From: a virus
Virus record (IMG/VR): IMGVR_UViG_3300031630_000027
Span: 1 to 24,812 of that record
Strand: one strand, 5' to 3'
Length of the DNA stretch: 24,812 nt
This document shows, one piece after another, positions 22,512-23,341 of the stretch; positions within the stretch are counted from its first letter, which is position 1; each line of letters starts with the position of its first letter. The translations under genes and the position numbers were made by a program. A model generated the notes under the pieces. It was not told the origin of the DNA and made no database searches. It was given only the letters and a program-made list of their open reading frames with translations.

Positions 22512-22542
22512 TATTCTCCATAATTTCCTAGGAAACTTTATC
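22512..22542 (-). repeat. 31-bp gene-junction repeat with palindrome copy 3
   Basis: These 31 bases are identical to 23311-23341. On the leftward strand the block runs from the end of the 22538-22876 gene (its TAA is inside the block), through TTTCCTAGGAAA at 22524-22535, to the GGAG ribosome binding site of the GP88 gene. Confidence 0.9.
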
Positions 22543-22876
22543 TAGGGATTGCTTCACTACCTAATTTTATTGACTTAGCTAAGAACACAGGACTACGAGC
22601 ATGCTCTTTTTTCTGGTAACTCTTTACTTCACATTCAACAATATACTTGTCCGTGGTATCCTTAAAGTTTTCCATATACAATAAGGCAGAATCATATGAT
22701 GGTAAAACGTGCCAGCCTGATAAATAATATGTACCACCAGAACCATCACGGACGTATGAGGTCTTTGAATTAACCCATTCATCACAAGAAATATTACGAT
22801 CACCATCTACACCGTGGAACAAAGTTTTCCATGAGTTTTCTTGATCACTAACTTTCATTATCTTAAACGCTTTCAT
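22538..22876 (-). CDS. Conserved-looking phage protein, unknown function
   Basis: 112 residues. It starts MKAFKIMKVSDQENSWKTLF and has a central SGGTYYLSGWHVLPSYDSAL (GWHV, residues about 54-57) and a C-terminal YIVECEVKSYQKKEHARSPV followed by FLAKSIKLG. The order 'short strand, GWHV, then V.C.V....' with a final LAK..K recalls a small family of phage proteins of unknown function. It probably folds as a compact beta-rich domain. It is coupled by ATGA to the preceding gene, and its TAA lies in the 31-base junction repeat. No catalytic motif was seen. Confidence 0.66.
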   Translation of the reverse strand: MKAFKIMKVSDQENSWKTLFHGVDGDRNISCDEWVNSKTSYVRDGSGGTYYLSGWHVLPSYDSALLYMENFKDTTDKYIVECEVKSYQKKEHARSPVFLAKSIKLGSEAIPR

Positions 22877-23106
22877 AATGTACTTCCAAGCTTGTGGGAA
22901 CGCTCACCGAATTGAATCACCGCTTCTGCTGAATCTATAGACAAACCATGGTCACGCATGAATAAGTCTTTCATTTGTCTACTATCCAGCTTGTACGCCA
23001 TGTATAACGCACCTAAACATTCTGCTGCGAATGATCGCTTGTATTGTGGTGTGCTTCGATCGTTTAATGCTGCCAAGTGACGTACTGTTCTTTTTTCGTA
23101 GCTCAT
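22873..23106 (-). CDS. Small helical protein, unknown function
   Basis: 77 residues, MSYEKRTVRHLAALNDRSTP followed by SFAAECLGALYMAYKLDSRQ and MKDLFMRDHGLSIDSAEAVI. It is mainly helical and balanced in charge; the second half could fold as a helix-turn-helix-like bundle, but no convincing DNA-binding helix was seen. It is joined to both neighbours by one- to four-base overlaps (TAATG and ATGA). Function unknown. Confidence 0.64.
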   Translation of the reverse strand: MSYEKRTVRHLAALNDRSTPQYKRSFAAECLGALYMAYKLDSRQMKDLFMRDHGLSIDSAEAVIQFGERSHKLGSTL

Positions 23107-23306
23107 TATAATTCCCCTTCAATGTAATTGTTTAATGCTAAATCTAATTCTAATTGTTCACCTTCCACCCAAATCAAATCAGATGATAAAGGCTCAAGTG
23201 AATAGTATTGGCGATATCCCATATCACCTAACATGCCTAAATAAACTTGATCATTATCACAAATCAATAGTTTACAATCCAAAGATTCTGCTGCTATAAC
23301 TTTCAT
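23106..23306 (-). CDS. Small acidic protein, unknown function
   Basis: 66 residues, MKVIAAESLDCKLLICDNDQ followed by VYLGMLGDMGYRQYYSLEPL and acidic, hydrophobic text to the end (LELDLALNNYIEGEL). It looks beta-rich and strongly acidic, in the style of small phage proteins that mimic or bind other proteins; this is a guess from composition. The ATG is preceded by GGAG within the 31-base junction repeat, and its stop overlaps the next start (TAATG). Confidence 0.62.
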   Translation of the reverse strand: MKVIAAESLDCKLLICDNDQVYLGMLGDMGYRQYYSLEPLSSDLIWVEGEQLELDLALNNYIEGEL

Positions 23307-23310
23307 TCTA

Positions 23311-23341
23311 TATTCTCCATAATTTCCTAGGAAACTTTATC
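23311..23341 (-). repeat. 31-bp gene-junction repeat with palindrome copy 4
   Basis: Identical to 22512-22542. TTTCCTAGGAAA is at 23323-23334. Here the upstream gene is read through the block in another frame and stops at the TAG in the centre of the palindrome (23327-23329). The block then provides GGAG for the gene starting at 23306. Confidence 0.9.

Follow-up and report, generated by a model that had tools for sequence, protein, structure and literature searches.

A dyad site repeated through the early/replication operon of a clade of uncultivated phages: a candidate set of dispersed operators

Why should two stretches of 31 bases remain identical between genes that bear no relation to one another? 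In a 24.8-kb virus contig, analysed over its whole length of 24,812 nucleotides and referred to below as the window, the blocks at 22512-22542 and 23311-23341 agree at 31 of 31 positions, and the leftward-strand sequence of both is GATAAAGTTTCCTAGGAAATTATGGAGAATA. The original prediction, made from the window alone, had noticed this pair and described it as a cassette supplying a stop codon, a palindrome and a ribosome binding site.

The paired block and its dyad

The details of that description were borne out. Read leftward, the block holds TAA and TAG in two frames and leaves the third open, and two different stops are indeed used, TAA closing the c17 gene and TAG within the palindrome closing the c6 gene (Table 1), while GGAGAATA, the proposed SD, precedes the ATGs of the GP88-family gene and of the gene at 23106-23306. 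The genes on either side, which had been claimed to be unrelated, fall in separate BLAST clusters; they are thus not homologous, and a remnant of gene duplication was ruled out as the origin of the pair.

The structural genes of the window (1-13.9 kb) share one strand. The opposite strand carries an operon in which many small early genes accompany those for DNA polymerase, primase-helicase, exonuclease and a gp2.5-like SSB. No close DNA relative was found among deposited phages; judged by the isolates whose replication proteins are nearest, the clade is probably marine. A homologue of the T7 gp5.9 RecBCD inhibitor is encoded at 21330-21509, and collagen-like Gly-X-Y coding repeats occur in a structural gene at 1468-1794.

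The palindrome of the block, TTTCCTAGGAAA, occurs six times in the window (at 16704, 21994, 22524, 23323, 23720 and 24231), a count reached in none of 100 shuffles. All six copies lie within the early/replication operon, and the structural genes of the window have none. The copy between the polymerase and SSB genes (POL/SSB) has an orthologous copy in many relatives, and the degenerate site next to the 23720 copy, CTAGGAAACTC, has as its counterpart a full second site in three of them (L261, L268 and L209). In L016, another relative, the palindrome and the SSB gene are separated by a tRNA-Trp gene (15813-15887), which is absent in the relatives checked.

Table 1. Block copies, dyad cores and associated genes in the window
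Feature	Position	Strand
31-base block copy 1: TAA stop, dyad, SD for GP88 gene	22512..22542	-
31-base block copy 2: TAG stop in dyad, dyad, SD for 23106-23306	23311..23341	-
Dyad core at DNA polymerase / gp2.5-like SSB gene junction	16704..16715	.
Dyad core inside GP88-family ORF	21994..22005	.
Dyad core of block copy 1	22524..22535	.
Dyad core of block copy 2	23323..23334	.
Dyad core just past c7 stop codon	23720..23731	.
Degenerate second site, 31 bases from 23720 dyad core	23693..23703	.
Perfect inverted 20-base block copy, 37-56 bases before c7 start	24227..24246	+
c7 gene, first of operon, 150-aa all-helical protein	23738..24190	-
c2 gene, small helix-turn-helix protein	21025..21333	-
c6 gene, ends with TAG of block copy 2	23327..23512	-
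c17 gene, ends with TAA of block copy 1	22538..22876	-
GP88-family gene (PF17338), started from block copy 1	21852..22508	-

Symmetry, spacing and placement among relatives

Related contigs (the L-numbered loci) were fetched with the GP88 neighbour, the SSB and c7 as queries; all phage sequences are uncultivated contigs, in which genes were called by a simple script. One small hydrophobic ORF of about 25 codons in L011 (8983-9060), which overlaps the f45 stop as TAATG, fell below the ORF length limit used; a similar sequence lies near f60 in L018, L218 and L221.

The clade holds about 110 distinct copies of the dyad, whose family form is RTTTCC-N2/3-GGAAAY, that is, [G/A]TTTCC and GGAAA[C/T] separated by two or three bases, with AWARTTTCC as the half-site and A/T-rich flanks. 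When spacers of 0-6 bases were scanned with the outer bases left free, 114 distinct contexts had spacers of either 2 (60) or 3 (54) bases and no others, and the outer base before TTTCC was a purine in 228 of 228 half-sites. The dyad scan gave 233 matches, against none in reversed sequence. The half-sites are invariant in every lineage and the core never varies. Spacer sequences are seen in both orientations (TAG/CTA, ACT/AGT). No comparable repeated dyad was found in 15 site-less relatives apart from one low-count motif (L056), nor was the 12-mer palindrome found in the phage literature searched.

Each genome carries 6-10 copies. Although the non-coding share of the region is 6-15%, 90 of the 109 distinct copies (about 83%) lie between genes and 19 inside them. 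In 56 of the 109 the stop of the upstream gene falls within the element or no more than 6 bases ahead of it, and in 41 a start codon follows 12-19 bases past it. The same positions, such as POL/SSB and the operon end, are kept across lineages. The copies within genes (GP88, primase-helicase and f41) are read in an open frame, as NFLGN, SFLGN or SFLGK in GP88 and as VSTGN or VSSGN in the primase-helicase; the GP88 segment that holds the dyad exceeds that of distant homologues by 3 codons, and primase-helicases of equal length without the dyad occur in relatives. Further copies stand ahead of the first gene, behind the last gene or inverted, where they supply neither stop nor SD.

A location immediately behind stop codons and 12-19 bases ahead of starts, with all copies in one operon, could also be expected of an mRNA hairpin that serves protection, processing or translational control through an RNA-binding protein, and the dyad would indeed give a stem of 5-7 pairs with a loop of 3-4. 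The predicted folding, however, is weak, at -3.5 to -5.8 kcal/mol with z only -0.2 to -1.3, the outer pair does not covary (A-T pairs 2 seen against 5.1 expected; A-C mismatches 11), and the unvarying core leaves no compensatory evidence. No Rfam family was found in the window, and we hold an RNA role to be rather improbable. A promoter reading found no support, sigma-70-like matches in the region being at chance level (16 found versus 13.9 in shuffles).

The length of the spacer, on the other hand, proved to be a property of the genome. At eight orthologous sites compared over 23 loci, the within-genome agreement in spacer length was 0.985 of 65 pairs, against 0.555 (maximum 0.83) after a permutation that ignores relatedness, the exceptions to uniformity being the GP88 copy of L016 and L203. 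For the spacer letters agreement is lower (69%), and spacers of one length but with different letters occur together in several genomes; L231, for instance, contains CTA, TAG, CAA and TCA. Three sites, behind f25, behind the polymerase and where the operon ends, are common to the contigs L014 and L015; the spacer length differs at each of them, while the flanks are near-identical at the f25 and polymerase sites. Because the distance is fixed while the letters are free, these observations favour a dimer reading two half-sites over pure copying, which would fix the spacer letters too.

Copying nevertheless appears to have contributed. The ACATTG flank of the L011-type junctions recurs at the f25 end and within GP88, where the residues concerned are Lys-Ser in L014 and Asn-Ile in L011; in the L011 group this right flank is copied in a single direction among the sites of the early region, a pattern indicative of copying in addition to selection. 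Functionless homogenisation, either by a self-spreading short palindromic element of the REP/RPE kind or by annealing-driven gene conversion, would account for the copied flank and the inverted copies, and the phage does encode an exonuclease and a gp2.5-like annealing protein. Considering that the spacer length stays fixed while letters vary inside a genome, that the half-sites are invariant in every lineage and that the positions are kept, we regard it as very unlikely. A set of dispersed operators, bound within the early/replication operon by a dimeric phage protein, is the reading we favour, and we judge it moderately probable.

Gene exchange at the blocks

The original prediction had further proposed that the block is a portable gene-junction module. 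On this reading it would exist for gene exchange, giving a stop, a hairpin and a ribosome site, and recombination would take place within it. One part of this stood: gene-order comparison identified the stop-palindrome-SD block at many junctions of the relatives, about half of the copies being fused to a stop and an SD, and in L011, L015, L047 and L017 successive junctions read AAAGTTTCCTAGGAAACATTGGAGAATA..ATG. Clean single-gene replacements were also found. Between L011 and L017 a single gene is swapped (f52 versus f60) with both homology borders at a block, L047 lacks f58, which L011 carries between two blocks, and where L016 has a compact TAATG overlap without a block its relatives have the block and a new SD. 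GP88-family alleles are exchanged between L236 and L239 with one border near a block. These two phages are otherwise very similar, and their GP88-family genes in the same slot (L236 1396-2037, L239 1833-2567) are diverged.

The other part did not hold. Gene-order breaks affected 67% of block junctions versus 68% elsewhere in 18 genomes (permutation 1313/2000, relatedness ignored), and five groups of close relatives disagreed, breaks being commoner at blocks in the ACT group and the reverse in the W/L209/L210 group. The palindrome as a recombination hot spot was consequently rejected, there being no consistent breakpoint excess in the 18 genomes or the five close groups. Neither could the supply of stop and SD be upheld as the purpose of the block, given the copies inside genes, inverted, or ahead of and behind the operon, and the ACT/AGT-spacer phages, whose palindrome is without a stop codon. 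Dyad symmetry and not stop/SD supply is thus the conserved property. The prediction was thus partly right, with gene swapping as a side effect of the block and not its main role; that the block exists for exchange seems unlikely to us.

Candidate binders and comparison with known systems

Dyad copies bracket c7, the gene with which the operon begins. With the exception of L263, every c7 locus inspected has a dyad shortly past the c7 stop codon, at most about 90 bases away; in many another lies 45-73 bases before the c7 start, and several have a second full dyad 31-32 bases on, a distance of about three DNA turns. Between the tandem sites after c7, L262 (7459-7505), L209 (1631-1676) and L268 (7456-7501) have an inverted repeat of their own, both sides of which change together (CTCT/AGAG, CTTT/AAAG).

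The c7 gene was found only in this clade, and no homologue was found in deposited phages. Foldseek searches of PDB and BFVD with its predicted structure yielded nothing convincing, no DNA-binding fold was recognisable, and in a second structural look the best Z was 6.3, which is in the tool's uninformative range for helical models. The protein is weakly basic in many phages, and its tree groups largely with spacer type. In L016, the backbone proteins are mostly 70-99% identical to those of 2-bp-spacer phages, whereas c7 shares 30% identity with the c7 of those phages and 54% with that of a 3-bp-spacer phage, and its spacers after f25 and after the polymerase are 3-bp. This one genome is suggestive of a natural swap of c7 together with spacer length. 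The c7 proteins of L262 and L267 are 75% identical while their spacers differ, so that a spacing switch would rest on few residues. The other candidate, c2, has weak matches to D5-like regulators and HTH_38; as a spacing determinant it was rejected, since L014, with 3-bp spacers, and L015, with 2-bp spacers, have nearly the same c2. The best candidate binder of the dyad is c7, with c2 as the second choice.

A host protein was also considered. The 16-mer AGTTTCCTAGGAAACT occurs in 55 bacterial contig stretches, about the chance number for 257 Gb, and in about 20 of them, from several phyla, it directly precedes a MarR gene of one subfamily (Pfam MarR); in five such MarR-carrying genomes it is near single-copy. 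It is probably the auto-operator of these MarR genes, and its adjoining MarR-family repressor genes makes such a palindrome a plausible operator. The 2-bp sites of the phages might therefore be host MarR-family operators, used to time early genes or to titrate the repressor. The 3-bp-spacer phages do not fit, however, and only 2 of 274 genomes in a sample of one gammaproteobacterial class carry that MarR; owing to this rarity we take host use as a minor possibility, one with very little probability. The subfamily gave no tblastn match in the fetched phage loci. The site resembles the putative MarR-subfamily operator of Legionella, Azospirillum and others in its identical 16-mer and differs from it in that the bacteria have essentially one site per genome, beside the marR gene, while no cognate MarR gene was found in those phage loci.

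The MarR-adjacent loci are L126, L127, L133, L136, L137, L140, L143, L144, L148, L149, L153, L157, L163-L166, L171, L174 and L176. Two other bacterial settings of the 16-mer were observed. In the Rhodobacteraceae MAG UBA9292 (L135, L138, L142), tandem, apparently intergenic palindromes lie 22 bp apart (two DNA turns), and about ten contigs of this MAG with the 16-mer suggest a regulon. In the Melainabacteria MAG ES-bin-223, the 16-mer lies on about ten contigs (L122-L124, L134, L139, L147, L151, L154, L156, L160) within longer A/T-flanked inverted repeats that resemble bidirectional terminators.

In the operator reading, AWARTTTCC-N2(3)-GGAAAYTWT would be a double-stranded DNA site at which each monomer of a dimeric protein contacts one half-site. 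Six to ten such sites run through the early/replication operon, mostly at gene borders, where they spare the proteins; a phage protein, most likely c7 and otherwise c2, would bind them and may damp or block transcription of the operon, its own gene included, as infection proceeds. Sites fused to a stop codon and SD make, as a by-product, interchangeable gene borders, and some genes have been exchanged between them. More tentatively, this podovirus-like clade might possess a genome-wide operator code, in which c7 represents a new all-helical DNA-binding fold, the 2- or 3-bp spacing is a specificity switch, and all sites, those within genes included, change together when c7 is replaced. If so, dispersed operators and their presumed regulator would co-evolve outside the temperate mycobacteriophages, with spacing of the whole set switching between close relatives, and it would become testable how a phage can alter its full set of operators simultaneously. 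A regulatory site at gene borders may also resemble, and partly act as, a joint for gene exchange.

Among known repeated elements, the promoter early stem-loop (PeSL) mobile cassettes of T4-type phages come near the present sites in placing a repeated regulatory stem-loop among small early genes, in association with gene shuffling; they carry an early promoter, and promoter-like matches in the present region are at chance level. The ninR linkers of lambdoid phages are, like the present blocks, short conserved junctions with stop and SD, and are regarded as guiding gene exchange; they are not dyad operators and are not known inside genes, and the present blocks differ from them in that gene-order breaks are not concentrated there.

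The dispersed, genome-specific set of putative operators described here resembles the stoperators and the SAS/ESAS of mycobacteriophages. Stoperators of the Cluster A phages L5 and Bxb1 are many copies per genome of one repressor site, at which the bound phage repressor stops elongation; the motif is specific to the phage group and follows its repressor, one site lies at the repressor gene, and the sites are asymmetric 13-bp sequences, mostly in one orientation, in temperate phages (PMC6550527). The present sites are likewise dispersed copies of one site, but they have a dyad core and inverted copies in place of asymmetry and a single orientation, and neither an integrase nor a repressor was recognised here. 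In Cluster K phages, SAS/ESAS occur in non-structural genes only, right at start codons, and sometimes include the stop of the preceding gene; ESAS are inverted repeats with 17-bp arms and 4-13 bp spacers that accompany the separate 13-bp SAS GGGATAGGAGCCC, and their consensus differs by subcluster (PMC3203893). The dyad described herein differs from these in sequence, in its 5-9 bp arms, in its spacer of 2 or 3, fixed per genome, and in its copies within genes, and resembles them in its frequent position shortly before a start and in its confinement, in the window, to non-structural genes.
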